Origin: Rhodanobacter sp. T12-5
GTDB lineage: Bacteria > Pseudomonadota > Gammaproteobacteria > Xanthomonadales > Rhodanobacteraceae
Length of the DNA stretch: 64,000 nucleotides
Direction of reading: 5' to 3'
Assembly (NCBI RefSeq): GCF_008329435.1
Contig: NZ_NPKN01000005.1
Coordinates: forward strand, 62,001-126,000
The notes under the pieces were generated by a model. It made no database searches and was not told the origin of the DNA. It saw only the letters and a program-made list of their open reading frames with translations. The position numbers were made by a program, and so were the translations under genes. Numbering within the stretch: the first letter of the stretch is position 1; every line of letters starts with the position of its first letter. Of this stretch, positions 1,659-9,016 are shown piece by piece.

Positions 1659-2456
1659 CTACGTGCGCGCGGGCAAACCAAAAAATGCCTCGGCCGTCGC
1701 CGTGCTGTTCGCCGCGGTCACCTCGGCCGGCTCGCCGCGATCGCGCGCAATCTCCTCGCAGATGTGCTTGAGGTACATCGGTTCGTTGCGTCGGTGGGCC
1801 GGCTGCGGACGTACCGTGCGTGGCAGCAGGTAGGGTGCGTCGGTTTCGATCATCAGGCGGTTCGCCGGGATCTCGCGCACCAGTTCACGCAAGTGGGAGC
1901 CGCGGCGTTCGTCGCAGATCCAGCCGGTGATGCCGATGTGGCAATCCAGCTCGAGGTAATCGTGCAAGGCCGCCGCGGTGTCGGTGAAGCAGTGCACCAC
2001 CGCGGCGGGAATGCGATCGCGATAGCGCCGCAGCAACGCGACGAAATCGTGGTGCGCGTCGCGCTGATGCAGGAACAGCGGCTTCTGCACTTCCACCGCG
2101 ATCTGCAACTGGCGCTCGAATGCCTGCAGTTGCACGTCGCGCGGCGAATAGTTGCGGTTGTAATCCAGCCCGGTCTCACCGACCGCACGCACTTCCGGCT
2201 GCCGTGCAAGCTCGCGCAGAAGTGCGTCGGTGGCATCGTCGTAATCGATCGCATGATGCGGATGCACGCCGGCGGTCGCGCGCAGCACGTCCGGATGGGC
2301 GCGCGCCAGCGCCAGCGCATGTTCGCTGTCGGCACGCGATGCGCCGGTCACCAGCATGCGGTTGACGCCATGCTCCGCCGCGCGCCGAATCACATCGGCC
2401 AGATCGTGCCGGAACGATTCATGACCGAGATTGGCGCCTATATCGATAAGCTGCAT
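1659..2456 (-). CDS. tatD: TatD-family metal-dependent DNase
   Basis: Protein of 265 residues with the TatD amidohydrolase fold. It starts MQLIDIGANL, where TatD proteins of this branch have a degenerate first metal motif, and carries TAGVHPHHA, GETGLDYNRN (metal-binding glutamate), FLHQRDAH (histidine), VHCFTDT and MIETDAPYLLPR (metal-binding aspartate). The closing region RRNEPMYLKHI is typical of E. coli TatD rather than of YcfH or YjjV. Members are magnesium-dependent 3'-5' exonucleases linked to oxidative DNA damage and RNA turnover; that function is taken from the family. It is convergent with rluE and divergent from the secretion operon. Confidence 0.92.
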   Translation of the reverse strand: MQLIDIGANLGHESFRHDLADVIRRAAEHGVNRMLVTGASRADSEHALALARAHPDVLRATAGVHPHHAIDYDDATDALLRELARQPEVRAVGETGLDYNRNYSPRDVQLQAFERQLQIAVEVQKPLFLHQRDAHHDFVALLRRYRDRIPAAVVHCFTDTAAALHDYLELDCHIGITGWICDERRGSHLRELVREIPANRLMIETDAPYLLPRTVRPQPAHRRNEPMYLKHICEEIARDRGEPAEVTAANSTATAEAFFGLPART

Positions 2457-2929
2457 GGCGAGCCCGCAAAAGCGGTGATTGTCGCAGGCGCATCGTCAAC
2501 TTTGGAATGGCGTATCGGAATTATTCCCATTGACAGCCACTCGGCGCCGTCAGTAGTTTCGGCCGCTTGCCGACTCTCCGGGGAGAGAGCGGCAGCGTCC
2601 ATCCTCGGTGATCGGCGTGCGTGCGAATGCCGATGTCGCGAATGATTCGAAAGGGGAGCAAGGCGGCAGATCGTTGGCGCGGCGTTCACCGTCCGGTACG
2701 CCGGCGCGGTATCGCTTTGCGTGGCAGACAGGCTTGTCAAATCGACAGGAAACGGCACTCAAGTATCGGTTTCTGTCAACAGAATGTGTTTTCGGCCGAT
2801 CGGGAAAGATTCGTTCAGAATCGTCCCGCGTGGCGCTCGCTTGTAGCCGGCGGGATGTGATACCAATAGCTATTGCCAATCTGCGTCGGGGGGCGCCGAA
2901 CAGGCCATTAACCCGAGTGAGGTAGGTGA
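2457..2929. promoter_or_regulatory. Divergent control region between tatD and the type II secretion operon
   Basis: 473 bases with no convincing gene; the short frames here have unlikely composition and no ribosome site. It must hold the promoter of the gspE operon. Visible elements are a perfect 12-base palindrome CAATAGCTATTG at 2864-2875, 55 bases before the gspE start, and a TTGACA hexamer near 2530 with no good -10 partner. GAGGTAGGTGA immediately precedes the gspE ATG as ribosome site. The palindrome is a candidate operator; its regulator cannot be named from sequence. Confidence 0.45.
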
Positions 2930-4663
2930 ATGTCGGCAGCCATCGAGCCGGTGATCAGCACGACGCGCGAAACAGTGGACGATCGCGAGGGGGACGTCTG
3001 TGCATGGCTGGTTGCGCGTGGTCGCCTCAAGGACAGCGATCTCGGGCGAGCGCGGCGTCTGCACGAGGAGTCGGTCGAAGGCACGCTGACCACGCTGATG
3101 GCGCGGCTCGGCCTGGTGTCCGAGCGTGACCTGGCCGAGGCCTGGGCCGAATTGCTGCAGGTGCCGCTGCTGTCCGCGCGCGATGCGCCGGAGCTGCCGC
3201 CGGCCGATCTCGACGTGTCGCTACGCTTTCTCAAGCAGCAGCATGTGGTGCCGGTTCAGGACGATGAACACGGCCTGACGCTGATCGTCGCCGATCCCGC
3301 CGATCCGTATCCGTTGCAGGCGGTCGAATTGGCCGCGGGGCGGCCGGTCGCATTGCGGGTCGGCTTGCGCTCGGAAATCGACGGGTTGATCGAACGTTAT
3401 TACGGCACCGGCCGCTCGGCGATGGGTACGATTGTCGAGAACCTCGACGGCAGCGCCGCCGAAGAGGACGACGTCGAGCATCTGCGCGATCTTGCCTCCG
3501 AGGCACCGGTCATCCGGCTGGTGAACCTCATCCTTCAACGCGCGGTGGAGCAGCGCGCTTCGGACGTGCATGTCGAACCGTTCGAGAATCGCCTGAAGGT
3601 GCGTTATCGCATCGACGGCGTGTTGCACGAAGTGGAAGCGCCGCCATCGTCATCGACGGCGGCGGTGATCTCGCGCGTGAAGATCATGGCGCGGCTCAAT
3701 ATTGCCGAACGCCGGCTGCCGCAGGACGGCCGCATCCAGTTGCGCGTGCAGGGCAAGGAACTGGATCTTCGCGTGTCCACCGTGCCGACCAGCTTCGGGG
3801 AGTCGGTGGTGATGCGCATCCTGGATCGCGAGTCGGTGGTGTTCGACTTCGCCTCGCTCGGCTTCACCGACAGCTTCCAGCAACGTTTCATCGACGTGCT
3901 GGAAAAGCCGCATGGCATCCTGTTGGTCACCGGCCCGACCGGTTCGGGCAAGACCACCACGCTGTACACCGCGCTGTCGCAGATCAACACCAACGACGTG
4001 AAGATCATCACCGTCGAGGACCCGGTCGAATACCAGCTCGAAGGCATCAACCAGATCCAGGTGAAGCCGCAGATCGGGCTGGATTTCTCAGGCGCGCTGC
4101 GCTCGATCATGCGCCAGGACCCGGACGTGATCATGATCGGCGAAATGCGCGACCTGGAGACCTGCCGCATCGCGATCCAGTCCGCGCTCACCGGCCACCT
4201 GGTGCTGTCCACGTTGCACACCAACAGCGCTGCCGGCGGCATCACGCGCCTGCTCGACATGGGGGTGGAGGATTACCTGCTCGGCTCGACCATCAACGGC
4301 ATCCTGGCGCAGCGGCTGGTGCGCCGGCTCGACCCGGAAACGGCGATCCCGTACGAGGCGCTGCCCGAGGTGATCGCACAATTCGAGCTGGAGAAGTACA
4401 CCGACGAGCGGCCGATCCGACTGTGGAAACCCGGCAGCAGCGCGGCCAATCCCAGCGGCTACCACGGTCGCCGCGCGATCATGGAATTCCTGACCATGAG
4501 CGACCCGCTGCGCCGGCTGGTCATGCAGCGTGCCGATGCAGGCGAGATCGAGAAGCAGGCGCGCGCCGAAGGCATGCGCACCATGTACGAGGACGGCATC
4601 GCCAAGGCGGTCGCCGGTGTCACCACGCTGGAGGAGGTCCTGCGCGTCACGCAGGACAGTTGA
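2930..4663 (+). CDS. gspE: Type II secretion ATPase GspE (XpsE)
   Basis: Protein of 577 residues, the cytoplasmic hexameric ATPase that powers pseudopilus assembly. Residues about 20-150 form the N-terminal MshEN-like domain that binds the inner-membrane protein GspL. The ATPase core follows, with Walker A GPTGSGKTTT, the Asp box (ITVEDPVEYQ), Walker B (DPDVIMIGEMRD) and the His box (TGHLVLSTLHTNSAAG). The C-terminal segment after QRLVRRL, where most GspE proteins carry two CxxC pairs binding zinc, contains no cysteine here; only two cysteines exist in the whole protein. First gene of the operon; gspF starts one base after its stop. Confidence 0.96.
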   Translation: MSAAIEPVISTTRETVDDREGDVCAWLVARGRLKDSDLGRARRLHEESVEGTLTTLMARLGLVSERDLAEAWAELLQVPLLSARDAPELPPADLDVSLRFLKQQHVVPVQDDEHGLTLIVADPADPYPLQAVELAAGRPVALRVGLRSEIDGLIERYYGTGRSAMGTIVENLDGSAAEEDDVEHLRDLASEAPVIRLVNLILQRAVEQRASDVHVEPFENRLKVRYRIDGVLHEVEAPPSSSTAAVISRVKIMARLNIAERRLPQDGRIQLRVQGKELDLRVSTVPTSFGESVVMRILDRESVVFDFASLGFTDSFQQRFIDVLEKPHGILLVTGPTGSGKTTTLYTALSQINTNDVKIITVEDPVEYQLEGINQIQVKPQIGLDFSGALRSIMRQDPDVIMIGEMRDLETCRIAIQSALTGHLVLSTLHTNSAAGGITRLLDMGVEDYLLGSTINGILAQRLVRRLDPETAIPYEALPEVIAQFELEKYTDERPIRLWKPGSSAANPSGYHGRRAIMEFLTMSDPLRRLVMQRADAGEIEKQARAEGMRTMYEDGIAKAVAGVTTLEEVLRVTQDS

Positions 4664-5897: not shown

Positions 5898-6413
5898 ATG
5901 ATTGAACACTCAATGCGATCCGGAATTCGGGATTCGGAATTCGCAAAAGCGAGCGGCTGGCGCAGAGGCGCCTTGCCGAATCCCCCATCCCGAATCCCTG
6001 ATCTCGGGCGAGCTTCGCGCGCCCGCGGCTTCACCCTGCTGGAAATGCTGGCAGTGATCGTGCTGATCGGCATCATCGGTGCGGTGGTGGTGACCCAGGT
6101 CGGCAAGAACGTGGACAAGGGCAAGTACGGTGCCGGCAAGGCGCAGTTGATGACGCTGAGCCAGAAGATCGAGAACTATTCGCTCGACAACGGCTCGCCG
6201 CCGCAGCAACTGGAAGGGCTGGCGGTGAAGCCGGCCAATGCGCCGAACTGGCAGGGGCCGTACGCGAAGGAATCCGATCTGAAAGATCCGTGGCGGCACG
6301 ACTTCGGCTACCAGTATCCGGGCCAGCACGGCAGTTTCGACCTGATCTTCTACGGCCAGGACGGCAAGCCGGGCGGCGACGGCTACAGCAAGGACGTGGG
6401 TAATTGGCAATGA
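5898..6413 (+). CDS. gspG: Major pseudopilin GspG with a repeat-derived extended leader
   Basis: Protein of 171 residues: the major pseudopilin that polymerises into the periplasmic pseudopilus. The cleavage and methylation site is RG|FTLLEML at about residues 43-50, with Glu5 of the mature protein present. The mature part has the usual calcium-binding C-terminal region (DLIFYGQDGKPGGDG). GspG leaders are normally 5-10 residues; here the leader is about 44 residues because a palindromic repeat (5922-5998) lies in frame between the ATG and the cleavage site. ATG 5898 is chosen for GGAG seven bases upstream. A TTG at 5973, inside the repeat and four bases after GAGG, could give a shorter leader. 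It overlaps gspH by four bases. Confidence 0.94.
   Translation: MIEHSMRSGIRDSEFAKASGWRRGALPNPPSRIPDLGRASRARGFTLLEMLAVIVLIGIIGAVVVTQVGKNVDKGKYGAGKAQLMTLSQKIENYSLDNGSPPQQLEGLAVKPANAPNWQGPYAKESDLKDPWRHDFGYQYPGQHGSFDLIFYGQDGKPGGDGYSKDVGNWQ
5922..5998. repeat. Palindromic GGGATTCGG/CGAATCCC element inside gspG
   Basis: Left arm GGAATTCGGGATTCGGAATTC and right arm CCGAATCCCCCATCCCGAATC flank a GC-rich centre. The 50-base core 5937-5986 is the reverse complement of gspH bases 6437-6486 with three mismatches by direct reading. The element is in frame and codes for part of the GspG leader. Repeats of this kind are usually intergenic in Xanthomonadales. Confidence 0.9.
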
Positions 6414-6967
6414 AGCCTGGATTCGGGATTCGGGATGGGGGATTCGGCAAGGCGCATCTGCGCCAGCCGTTCGCTTTTGCGAATCCGCCATCCCGAATCC
6501 CGAATCGCGGGCACGCTTCGCGCGCCAACGGCTTCACCCTGCTGGAAATGCTGGCGGTGATTCTGTTGATCGGCATTGCGGTGGCGGCGGTGTCGGTGTC
6601 GGTGACCCAGGGCCTGGCCAGCGCGCGTGTGCGCGCCGCCAGCAGCGAACTGGCCGGTGCGTTGCGGGCCACCCGCGCGCAGGCGATCGTGCGCGGGAAG
6701 GAACAGAACTTCGACGTCGATACCAGCGCGAACAGCTATCGCAGCGTAAGGCAGAAAGACGTGCGCCTGCCCAAAGGCCTGCGCGTGAGCATCACCAGCG
6801 CGCAGGCGGATCAACCCAACGACCATACCGGGCGCATCCGGTTTTTCCCTGACGGCAGCTCGACCGGCGGGCGGATCACGCTGCAGAGCGGCAAGCGCCA
6901 GTGGCATGTCAATGTGTCATGGCTGACCGGCGAAGTGCGCGTGGTCGACACGGTTGCAGTCCGATGA
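6410..6967 (+). CDS. gspH: Minor pseudopilin GspH with a repeat-derived extended leader
   Basis: Protein of 185 residues. Cleavage site NG|FTLLEML lies at about residues 40-47, followed by the membrane helix AVILLIGIAVAAVSVSVTQG and a GspH C-terminal domain (ARVRAASSELAGALRATRAQ). It is a minor pseudopilin of the pseudopilus tip. The ATG at 6410 overlaps the gspG stop (ATGA), giving translational coupling; the TTG at 6404 is a less likely start. The leader is about 41 residues long, built by the palindromic element at 6420-6506. The DNA around the cleavage site closely resembles that of gspG, suggesting shared history of the two 5' ends. Confidence 0.93.
   Translation: MKPGFGIRDGGFGKAHLRQPFAFANPPSRIPNRGHASRANGFTLLEMLAVILLIGIAVAAVSVSVTQGLASARVRAASSELAGALRATRAQAIVRGKEQNFDVDTSANSYRSVRQKDVRLPKGLRVSITSAQADQPNDHTGRIRFFPDGSSTGGRITLQSGKRQWHVNVSWLTGEVRVVDTVAVR
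6420..6506. repeat. Palindromic GGGATTCGG/CGAATCCC element inside gspH
   Basis: Arms 6420-6447 and 6479-6506 are reverse complements at 26 of 28 positions, and could form a long hairpin in DNA or mRNA. The centre reads GGCGCATCTGCGCC. This copy has the opposite core orientation to the one in gspG and the same orientation as the one in gspI. It lies wholly within the coding sequence upstream of the prepilin cleavage site. Confidence 0.93.
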
Positions 6968-7485
6968 AAGCCGGGAATCGGGATTCGGGAATGGGGATTC
7001 GGCAAGGCGCGTCAGCGCCGGCCGCCCGCTTTTGCCATTCCCCATTCCCGATTTCCCATTCCCGGCAGCAAAGCGGCTTCAGCCTGCTCGAAGTGATCGC
7101 CGCGATCATGCTGCTGGCGATCGCGTTCACCGCGTTGATGAAGGTGGCTGGTGCGTCGATCAGCCTGACCCACAACGCCGCCGAACACAGCGAGGCGGCG
7201 ATGTGGGCGCGCAGCCTGCTCGACAGCGCGTTCGTGGGCGAGCCGGTCAAACCGGGCAGCAGCTCGGGCCGGTTCGACCGGCAATTTCGCTGGCAACTCG
7301 AGGTCACCCCGTGGAACGGTGCGGGGATCGCCGCACCGAACGCACCACTGCATCTGTACCAGCTGGACCTGGACGTGCTGTGGGGGCCGACGGCGCATCC
7401 GCGCTCGGCACATTTCCGCACCCTGCGACTGGGTGGGCCACAGGTCGGCGGCGCCCAGCTCGACGATTCGCAGGCAGCCCGATGA
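6964..7485 (+). CDS. gspI: Minor pseudopilin GspI with a repeat-derived extended leader
   Basis: Protein of 173 residues with cleavage site SG|FSLLEVI at about residues 37-44, Glu5 present, membrane helix AAIMLLAIAFTALMKVAG, and a short periplasmic domain typical of the GspI tip pseudopilin. The ATG at 6964 overlaps the gspH stop (ATGA). The leader of about 38 residues again derives from an in-frame palindromic element (6973-7063), whereas GspJ and GspK downstream have short ordinary leaders. It overlaps gspJ by four bases. Confidence 0.93.
   Translation: MKAGNRDSGMGIRQGASAPAARFCHSPFPISHSRQQSGFSLLEVIAAIMLLAIAFTALMKVAGASISLTHNAAEHSEAAMWARSLLDSAFVGEPVKPGSSSGRFDRQFRWQLEVTPWNGAGIAAPNAPLHLYQLDLDVLWGPTAHPRSAHFRTLRLGGPQVGGAQLDDSQAAR
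6973..7063. repeat. Palindromic GGGATTCGG/CGAATCCC-type element inside gspI
   Basis: Left arm from 6973 (GGGAATCGGGATTCGGG) and right arm 7034-7063 (GCCATTCCCCATTCCCG) pair imperfectly. The core GGGGATTCGGCAAGGCGC through CGCTTTTGCC matches the gspH copy in the same orientation, with more divergence than the gspG/gspH pair. The element is in frame upstream of the GspI cleavage site. Confidence 0.88.
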
Positions 7486-8153
7486 AACGGGCCGCCGGTT
7501 TCACCCTGCTGGAGGTACTGGCCTCGCTGGTCCTGCTGGCGTTGCTGCTGGTCGGGGTGTACTCGGGCATCCGCACCGCCTCCCGCAGCGTGCAATCGGG
7601 TACCGCCGCGATCGATCGGATCGATCAGATCCGATCGGCCCAGCAGTTCATACGGCGCGAACTTTCGCAAAGCCTCCTCCAGCCTATCGATCACACGGCC
7701 GCGGGCGAGCCGGTCTATTTTGTCGGCACCGCGCGCGAGATGCGCTACGTCGCGCCCTTGCCCGGCTATCTCGGCAAACTCGGGCCGCAGTTGCAGCAAC
7801 TGCAACTGGTCGATGACGGCCACGGCGGTCTGCGTCTGGAGTTGAGCCTGGCCCTGCTGCCGCCGAACGACGAGGAGGCCCCGGTCCCGCTGGGCGATCC
7901 GCAGGTACTGCTCGATCACATCGGCAGCGGCGGCTTCACTTATCGCGGCACCGATCTGCGGGGCCGCGCGGTGCCGTGGTCCGCCGCGTGGGCCGATGGT
8001 CGACTGCTGCCGCAATTGGTGCGCATCGATCTGCATGCACGGGGCGACCAGGACTGGCCGCAGATGCAGGTTCCATTGCGCCTGAATCCGGTGAACAACG
8101 CCGGTGCGAATGGTCTGTCGCGGATGGGCCTTGGCGCGGGAGGTGCGCGATGA
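7482..8153 (+). CDS. gspJ: Minor pseudopilin GspJ
   Basis: Protein of 223 residues with a short conventional leader MKRAAG before FTLLEVLASLVLLALLL, Glu5 present, then IRTASRSVQSG and the beta-rich GspJ periplasmic domain. With GspI and GspK it forms the tip complex of the pseudopilus that contacts cargo and the secretin. It starts inside the gspI stop (ATGA at 7482) and its own stop overlaps the gspK start the same way. No palindromic repeat is present, which makes its leader a useful contrast with gspG, gspH and gspI. Confidence 0.94.
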   Translation: MKRAAGFTLLEVLASLVLLALLLVGVYSGIRTASRSVQSGTAAIDRIDQIRSAQQFIRRELSQSLLQPIDHTAAGEPVYFVGTAREMRYVAPLPGYLGKLGPQLQQLQLVDDGHGGLRLELSLALLPPNDEEAPVPLGDPQVLLDHIGSGGFTYRGTDLRGRAVPWSAAWADGRLLPQLVRIDLHARGDQDWPQMQVPLRLNPVNNAGANGLSRMGLGAGGAR

Positions 8154-9016
8154 GGCGGTGCCTGTCCCGACGGTCCGGACAGCGCGGAGTGGCGTTGCTG
8201 CTGGTGCTGTGGGCCTGCACGCTGCTGGCGATCCTGCTTGGCGGCTATGCCGCGCTGGCGCGCACCGAGGGCCTGCAGGCACGCTACGACTTTGCCCAGA
8301 CCCAGGCGCATTACGCGGCCGAGGCCGGCGTGATGCGGGCGGTGTATGGCTTGCAGGATCCGCAGGCGAAACAGCGCTGGATCGGCGACGGGCGAACCTA
8401 TACGTTCCATTACGGCGACGCCACGGTGCTGCTGTCATCGGTCGACGAAGGCGGCAAGGTCGATCTCAACACCGCCTCGCCCGAAGTGCTGCAAGCCCTG
8501 TTCCAGGCCGCCGGGATGCCGCAGGCACAGGCACAGATACTGGCCGGCCGCGTGGTGGATTGGCGCAACCCGGTCAACCTGGTGGGCGCGGCCGACAGTG
8601 GCCGCGAGGCATATGCCGCGGCCGGACGCGACTACGGTCCGCGCAACGCGCCGTTTGCCAGTGTCGAGGAGTTGCAGATGGTACTGGGCATGACCCCGGC
8701 GCTGTACCGGCAACTGGCGGGCGTGATCACGATCTGGTCGGGCAGCACGAGTCCGGATCCGGACATGGCGCCGCCGCTGGCGCTGGCCGCGATCCCGGGA
8801 ATGACGACCCAGCAACGCGAGGCGATCGAGGCCGCACGGATCAAGCACGCGAACGATCCGAGCCTGATCCTCAATAACGGCACGACGCACAGTATCCGGT
8901 CGGAGGCCACGCTGGCCGACGGCACCCGTGCCGTCCTGCGCGTCACGGTTCGCCTGCAGTCGGGGCAGGCACAATCCTATGCGGTACTGCGCTGGCGGGA
9001 GGGAACGGCGGAATGA
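8150..9016 (+). CDS. gspK: Minor pseudopilin GspK
   Basis: Protein of 288 residues beginning MRRCLSRRSGQRG before VALLLVLWACTLLAILL. As in other GspK proteins, position 5 of the mature helix is not glutamate (leucine here) and the periplasmic region is large. KVDLNTASPEVLQALFQAAG is the helix-hairpin-helix-like segment of GspK, and a second such block occurs at VEELQMVLGMTPALYRQL. GspK caps the pseudopilus tip. The start overlaps the gspJ stop and the stop overlaps the gspL start. Confidence 0.93.
   Translation: MRRCLSRRSGQRGVALLLVLWACTLLAILLGGYAALARTEGLQARYDFAQTQAHYAAEAGVMRAVYGLQDPQAKQRWIGDGRTYTFHYGDATVLLSSVDEGGKVDLNTASPEVLQALFQAAGMPQAQAQILAGRVVDWRNPVNLVGAADSGREAYAAAGRDYGPRNAPFASVEELQMVLGMTPALYRQLAGVITIWSGSTSPDPDMAPPLALAAIPGMTTQQREAIEAARIKHANDPSLILNNGTTHSIRSEATLADGTRAVLRVTVRLQSGQAQSYAVLRWREGTAE

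Follow-up and report, generated by a model that had tools for sequence, protein, structure and literature searches.

Three consecutive pseudopilin genes of Rhodanobacter sp. T12-5, gspG, gspH and gspI, each carry a palindromic repeat of about 90 nt between the start codon and the prepilin cleavage site, and palindromic leaders of this kind are a family-wide hotspot in the gsp pseudopilins. The elements lie in frame, need to be translated, recur among relatives, come from several unrelated repeat groups, are specific to gspG, gspH and gspI (and gspJ) as against T4P prepilins and gspK, and resemble one another within a genome. On balance we favour, as the best reading, that REP-like repeats have been tolerated in the disposable leaders of gsp genes and have spread from one such leader to another.

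Palindromic elements in three gsp leaders

The window, that is, the whole 64-kb stretch of DNA analysed, contains a T2SS operon in which gspG, gspH, gspI, gspJ and gspK are consecutive on the forward strand (5898-9016). The starts of gspH, gspI, gspJ and gspK overlap the stop of the preceding gene as ATGA, and an SD-like GGAG can be read 5' of the gspG ATG at 5898. The genes, leaders and elements are listed below.

5898..6413 (+), gspG, major pseudopilin: T2SSG PF08334, 1.9e-28; TIGR01710 over cut-off
5898-6029 (+), gspG leader: 44 aa from ATG 5898; mature protein from 6030, from start and site reading
5917..6003 (+), gspG-leader element: arms 5917-5951/5969-6003, 77% complementary; leader MFE -60.9 kcal/mol
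6006..6024 (+), short GC-rich imperfect inverted repeat between the gspG element and the cleavage site, read from the sequence
6410..6967 (+), gspH, XpsH-like minor pseudopilin: PF12019, 2.6e-11; NF047827, 2.3e-39, below cut-off
6410-6532 (+), gspH leader: 41 aa from ATG 6410, overlapping the gspG stop (ATGA); mature protein from 6533
6420..6506 (+), gspH-leader element: arms 6420-6454/6472-6506, 89% complementary; leader MFE -78.0 kcal/mol
6964..7485 (+), gspI, XpsI-like minor pseudopilin: PF07963; NF047828, 4.1e-24, below cut-off
6964-7077 (+), gspI leader: 38 aa from ATG 6964, overlapping the gspH stop (ATGA); mature protein from 7078
6970..7066 (+), gspI-leader element: arms 6970-7009/7027-7066, 80% complementary; leader MFE -68.5 kcal/mol
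7482..8153 (+), gspJ: leader of 6 aa, element-free in the T12-5 genome (control)
8150..9016 (+), gspK: leader of 13 aa, element-free (control)

Only gspG passes its NCBIfam equivalog cut-off, with the other four scoring below theirs, and gspI and gspJ match only the N_methyl domain in Pfam. A prepilin site, G^F[TS]LLE, lies 3' of the palindrome in gspG, gspH and gspI, and all three show the features expected of prepilins (Gly at -1, Phe at +1, Glu at +5 and a hydrophobic stretch). The first-pass annotation, made from the sequence alone, had described a palindrome between start and cleavage site in these genes, leaders of about 38-44 residues, and short ordinary leaders in gspJ and gspK. Inverted repeats were located in all three genes, and the leader lengths given above agree with that description.

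Each element consists of two arms of about four heptads (GGGATTC, GGGAATC or GGGAATA) flanking a short loop, with GGGATTC arms in gspH and a 7-bp tandem period in the arms of gspH and gspI. Relative to the copy in gspH, that in gspG lies in the opposite orientation, the two being 89% complementary over 89 nt. The predicted mRNA hairpins of the leaders, which had also been proposed earlier, are very strong folds (-61, -78 and -69 kcal/mol). The motif GGGATTCGG occurs eight times in the window, all within the three leader elements, against 0.76 expected, and this count was reached in 0 of 100 shuffles. The GC-rich mini inverted repeat has a counterpart in gspH (6509-6526, 3' of the element); it encodes the basic end of the leader and recurs, as the GGGCGCGCnnnGCGCGCC type, behind the elements of relatives, in gspG, gspH, gspI and gspJ of other genera.

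Survey of relatives and reading of the elements

We compared the pseudopilin 5' ends, as had been suggested at the outset, in 128 genomes of the family. These comprised 42 of 45 Rhodanobacter genomes (G020, G027 and G041 lack a full gspH match) and 86 of the 167 genomes with a match in other genera, mostly the best-scoring ones and not a random draw; the 28 named loci were drawn from 65. For each gene we measured how far the prepilin site lies from the previous stop, calling the distance long at 80 nt or more (125 nt or more for gspG). Long distances were found in Rhodanobacter for gspG in 17/41, gspH in 23/42, gspI in 17/42, gspJ in 3/42 and gspK in 0/42, and in the other genera for 14/85, 56/85, 16/84, 17/82 and 3/76, respectively. 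A palindrome was called when its score was at least 9 and beat all of 40 dinucleotide shuffles, with rows dropped if the gap fell outside 20-320 nt or contained N (for example, gspJ of L151 and gspH of L226).

Palindromes were present in 108 of 164 long leaders versus 5 of 357 short ones, leaving 56 of the 164 long leaders without a clear palindrome. The 108 comprise 24 in gspG, 45 in gspH, 26 in gspI, 12 in gspJ and 1 in gspK; the presence or absence of the element varies among relatives, and elsewhere in the family gspJ is included. In L151 (G122:C1, oriented 2348-3292), 944 nt of nested palindromic repeats lie between gspI and the gspJ prepilin site; read in the gspJ frame from an ATG that overlaps the end of gspI, the stretch has no stop and could encode a leader of 316 residues, although later starts exist. 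L041 has about ten GGGAATA-type heptads arrayed 5' of the gspG start, besides its leader element.

The positions of start codons indicate that the elements are read. In-frame starts in the window lie 48 (TTG), 44, 39 and 19 (TTG 5973) codons before the site in gspG, 43 (TTG) and 41 in gspH, and 38 and 29 in gspI. No in-frame start codon was found 3' of the element in gspH of the window and, judging by its codons, gspH must read the whole element; a late start could be used in gspG alone, even so within the 3' arm, and gspI could start within its 5' arm. That the elements are untranslated intergenic DNA, with translation starting downstream, would fit TTG 5973 and the 8 of 108 palindromic leaders that have a start 3' of the palindrome. 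We find this scarcely credible, however, given that gspH of the window and 100 of the 108 leaders have no in-frame ATG, GTG or TTG there, and that the ATGA-start distance (2 mod 3) is kept in 26/26 palindromic leaders of gspI, 12/12 of gspJ and 37/45 of gspH across the 128 genomes (8/45 for gspH depart from it). Starts are confined to the upstream side in 39 of the 108; apart from these and the 8 with a downstream start, the leaders have them also or only inside the palindrome. Palindromic gspG leaders show no frame preference (12, 4 and 8), and gspG need not overlap gspF. The scarcity of downstream starts and the kept frame imply that the inserts are read through, wholly or in good part, and a late translation start was rejected on these grounds. 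The frame in use is stop-free in 97% of the 108 elements versus 45% of shuffled sequences, and the unused forward frames in only 69%.

The first-pass annotation had named two observations that would undo its proposal: translation beginning after the repeats, and repeats absent from the true sequence. Neither found support: gspG alone has a candidate late start, TTG 5973, which still lies in its 3' arm, and database proteins bear leaders of the same kind. One of them, the cluster representative P0001, is 99% identical to GspH of the window and has an identical leader, which argues against an assembly error, an explanation that we rejected; the P0001 cluster holds 14 member sequences on 7 contigs, among which the T12-5 genome itself may be counted.

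Specificity, turnover and other copies

Prepilin leaders outside the gsp operon provide a control. In Rhodanobacter, a palindrome that must be translated was found in 0 of 127 T4P-type prepilin leaders (121 distinct; 6 of the 127 sites were seen twice, the loci coming from some of the genomes). The same method applied to gsp in the genus recovered 12/42 for gspG, 14/42 for gspH, 14/42 for gspI, 2/42 for gspJ and 0/42 for gspK. The difference between 0/127 and the 40/126 for gspG, gspH and gspI has p = 2e-14, or 6e-14 with the 121 distinct sites. Heptad clusters likewise numbered 0 in 60 T4P loci (199,858 nt, of which about 10,800 nt overlap), while the 42 gsp loci (146,161 nt) contained 41. 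Within the T12-5 genome, the seven other prepilin leaders that could be placed, gspJ included, are ordinary; two weaker prepilin matches (L123 and L124) gave no site. The earlier argument that a cleaved leader could tolerate almost any sequence is thus insufficient as an explanation, and leader tolerance as sole cause was rejected on the T4P result.

Other boundaries of the operon were also compared. Palindromes occur in gspK in 1 of 118 cases, for which we propose its dissimilar 5' end as the reason. No heptad cluster was found at the K/L junction in the 28 named loci, where the genes overlap or abut in 26. The E/F gap is 10 nt long in 11 of 24 named loci and at least 123 nt in 13, with heptad clusters in 6 (L048, L058, L059, L060, L063 and L067). 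The elements thus sit at the gene boundaries of the operon from E through J, and inside the leader where intergenic space is absent.

The elements are diverse and labile. A single heptad-repeat superfamily accounts for 91 of the 108, the other 17 forming ten small clusters that include GGGACTC heptads and CCCTCTCCCC repeats; clustering was by single linkage on 7-mers, so that the large cluster is a superfamily and some small clusters are loose. An independent case is L359, which belongs to a different family of the order (code f12) and whose leaders of gspI and gspJ (oriented 2057 and 2563) are made of unrelated GGGAAAA palindromes. L363 (family code f10) has other repeats 5' of the gspH, gspI and gspJ sites, and the 13 loci inspected from family f2 showed no such element. 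Element presence is labile on a quick tree built from the mature proteins of the same operon, with at least 21 changes of palindromic state for gspG, 36 for gspH, 19 for gspI, 9 for gspJ and 1 for gspK. Presence in gspG, gspH, gspI and gspJ is correlated between genes.

Elements in different genes of one genome share on average 0.41 of their 8-mers (84 pairs), versus 0.10 for the same gene across genomes (1657 pairs). A gspH-type flank ends the gspI leaders of L041, L169 and L170 and the gspJ leader of L169. The within-genome similarity and these flanks indicate local spread or homogenisation, but the nearest relative of an element was in the same genome for only 6 of 84 (58 were in a different gene of another genome and 20 in the same gene elsewhere), weakening the case for purely local spread. 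Three independent occurrences at one position had been taken to argue against chance. Chance was indeed rejected, both by the window shuffles and by the shuffle-tested survey of relatives, whereas simple independence does not survive the within-genome sharing. In L040, gspI has what looks like a deletion scar, where the two ends of an element meet without a change of frame. We sought target-site duplications at gspH junctions and none was readable, as empty and filled junctions differ as whole haplotypes.

Copies elsewhere in the T12-5 genome were located by matching GGGATTCGGGATTC with at most one mismatch, which gave 36 matches in 3.98 Mb, against 0 for the reversed control pattern. These were grouped by hand into 16 places, with gene contexts read by hand and ten flanking proteins checked in Pfam. 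A genome-wide count inside and outside prepilin leaders, which had also been proposed, yields three gsp leaders, 12 places outside genes by this reading and one lone 14-mer in a coding frame, which has no palindrome (L367). Six of the copies were also recovered by BLAST, all beside or between genes. Four lie in intervals whose flanking genes are an EF-Tu gene and tRNA-Trp, two genes for MacB/FtsX permeases, genes for an ARD protein and a HAD hydrolase, and genes of the FHIPEP (flhA) and SRP54 (flhF) types; the other two are 3' of genes encoding a DUF697 GTPase and a cytochrome c. The remaining seven places are L367 and six outside genes, one of which we take to be the interval between rpoB and rpoC; at L366, a lone 14-mer stands directly 5' of a likely start. 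With 13 other copies spread over intergenic DNA, the probability of three falling within 360 nt comes to 5e-7 to 3e-8 by a rough Poisson calculation, the value varying with the share of the genome taken to be intergenic.

Explanations and wider meaning

Under the tolerated-repeat reading, REP-like palindromic repeats would lodge at gene boundaries and, where gsp genes overlap by ATGA, the leader would be the sole place between two mature proteins able to accept an insert. The leader would be translated, stay cytoplasmic owing to its hydrophilicity and be removed by the prepilin peptidase. Heptads that are mostly stop-free and hydrophilic in any frame would suit such a leader. Recombination between similar 5' ends may then spread or homogenise the element among pseudopilin genes, in-frame deletion may remove it again, and the hairpin may have a secondary effect on mRNA decay or translation. 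Several observations sit poorly with this reading: gspK is almost element-free although its leader should be equally tolerant, plain tolerance does not predict that gspH is favoured over gspG and gspI (p = 0.0002 and 0.0009), the unused forward frames are less often open than 'any frame' would imply, and there remain the long leaders without a clear palindrome and the eight palindromic gspH leaders that lack the ATGA distance.

The main rival, which we hold to be possible but the less probable account, is selected mRNA punctuation, in which the gspG message is bracketed by the hairpin of its own leader and that of the gspH leader. The 3' hairpin, in the coding region of the next gene, would block 3'-5' exonucleases and/or lower gspH translation, the 5' hairpin would guard gspG, and their joint effect would be more of the major pseudopilin relative to the minor ones, any available repeat being recruited. 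The preference for gspH, directly 3' of the major pseudopilin gene, agrees with this: gspH has the element without gspG in 26 genomes and gspG without gspH in 5, and gspH has it without gspI in 23 and gspI without gspH in 5. The start is overlapping in 33 of 45 palindromic gspH leaders versus 1 of 49 short ones (a set that includes L226, which is actually long but contains N), and a hairpin in gspG is accompanied by one in gspH in 19 of 24 genomes. In an exploratory analysis of leader folds, in which short leaders were sampled at 40%, long gspH leaders lacking a clear palindrome folded better than shuffled sequences, with z below -2, in 15 of 33 cases versus 2 of 21 for gspG, gspI and gspJ together. 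Unrelated repeat groups occupy this one place, and E. coli offers a precedent of protective structures inside the downstream coding sequence (PMC5927463). Against punctuation, many relatives lack the elements, those in gspI and gspJ are unpredicted, and the genomes are not independent. Among eight equal-length gspH elements, 12 of 32 arm pairs show at least two Watson-Crick types, as expected from hairpin selection or arm homogenisation; such two-sided changes would also follow from homogenisation at the DNA level. Selection for a punctuating role around gspG, in mRNA decay or in translation, is plausible though unproven, and the hairpins may set pseudopilin ratios here.

Two mobile or switching mechanisms fared worse. 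RAYT-mobilised REP elements that prefer pseudopilin 5' ends as a target seem improbable: Y1_Tnp matches occur in 36 of the 45 Rhodanobacter genomes, with two in T12-5, but 3 of 9 element-rich genomes (G010, G011 and G028) have none, element copy counts being lower bounds with 20 candidates scored per genome, and the GTAG tag is absent from the ends of the three elements read. RAYT dependence was set aside as improbable on account of those three genomes. Separately, G008:C1 has four Y1_Tnp matches in 166-aa frames (E about 1e-34), far stronger than the others and perhaps IS200-like copies. Phase variation, in which changes in the number of 7-bp units would switch pseudopilin genes by frameshift, is more improbable still. 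Heptad units do lie in coding sequence, but they are imperfect and few, and out-of-frame alleles were found in 0 of 26 gspI and 0 of 12 gspJ palindromic leaders, on which basis it was rejected.

The elements invite comparison with several known systems. Rickettsia palindromic elements are in-frame, translated repeats in many unrelated protein genes (PMC10969869, PMC3733652), and the first-pass analogy with them is apt, as the start and frame evidence places the gsp palindromes in frame and translated, with the gene staying open. The gsp elements differ in being confined mainly to one gene set and to a predicted cut-off peptide, and in comprising several unrelated repeat groups; insertion across many unrelated genes was not seen in T12-5, where 3 of the 16 places are gsp leaders. 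REP elements of the GTAG/CGTC families are palindromes of 20-40 bp, mostly intergenic with some inside ORFs (PMC3733652), resembling the short repeats here and the mostly intergenic non-gsp copies of T12-5. The gsp elements, however, have heptad arms of about 28-40 nt and no consistent Y1_Tnp link, and a terminal GTAG or CGTC tag, as defined in PMC3733652, is absent from all three window elements.

In E. coli, structures that protect transcripts from decay are found, on average, 107 nt into the coding sequence of the downstream gene, the malE REP being their model case; for papA mRNA the protection comes from a structure at the 5' end together with a 3' terminator (PMC5927463). The gsp hairpins are similarly near the start of a downstream gene, behind a gene needed in excess, but they are repeats in a discardable leader and their protective role is putative. 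Class III signal peptide leaders are 6-26 aa long (PMC4471445); like long prepilin leaders, those of gsp are hydrophilic and end in Gly, but at 38-44 aa, and longer in relatives, they are repeat-built and not conserved between species. No report of palindromic repeats in pseudopilin leaders was found among the open-licence PubMed Central papers listed, and the heptad sequences in four spellings had no match there. A hotspot in cleaved leaders is absent from the descriptions of Rickettsia elements and REP in the portions of the literature covered.

The gsp leaders show, clearly and in countable form, palindromic repeats that one specific translated niche has tolerated or domesticated, and 42 Rhodanobacter and 86 other genomes are available for comparison. 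The repeats account for the wide variation in length and sequence of gsp pseudopilin leaders in the family, and caution annotators against trimming the starts of these genes. They also provide a testable model of how overlapping operon genes can still gain a hairpin between them. We raise only tentatively the idea that the gspG/gspH junction is a recurrent site at which lineages recruit their own palindromic repeats to form a disposable, in-frame RNA hairpin by which the stoichiometry of the pseudopilins is set. If true, a regulatory RNA module would be hidden in a cut-off peptide, leaving the gene overlaps and the mature proteins untouched.
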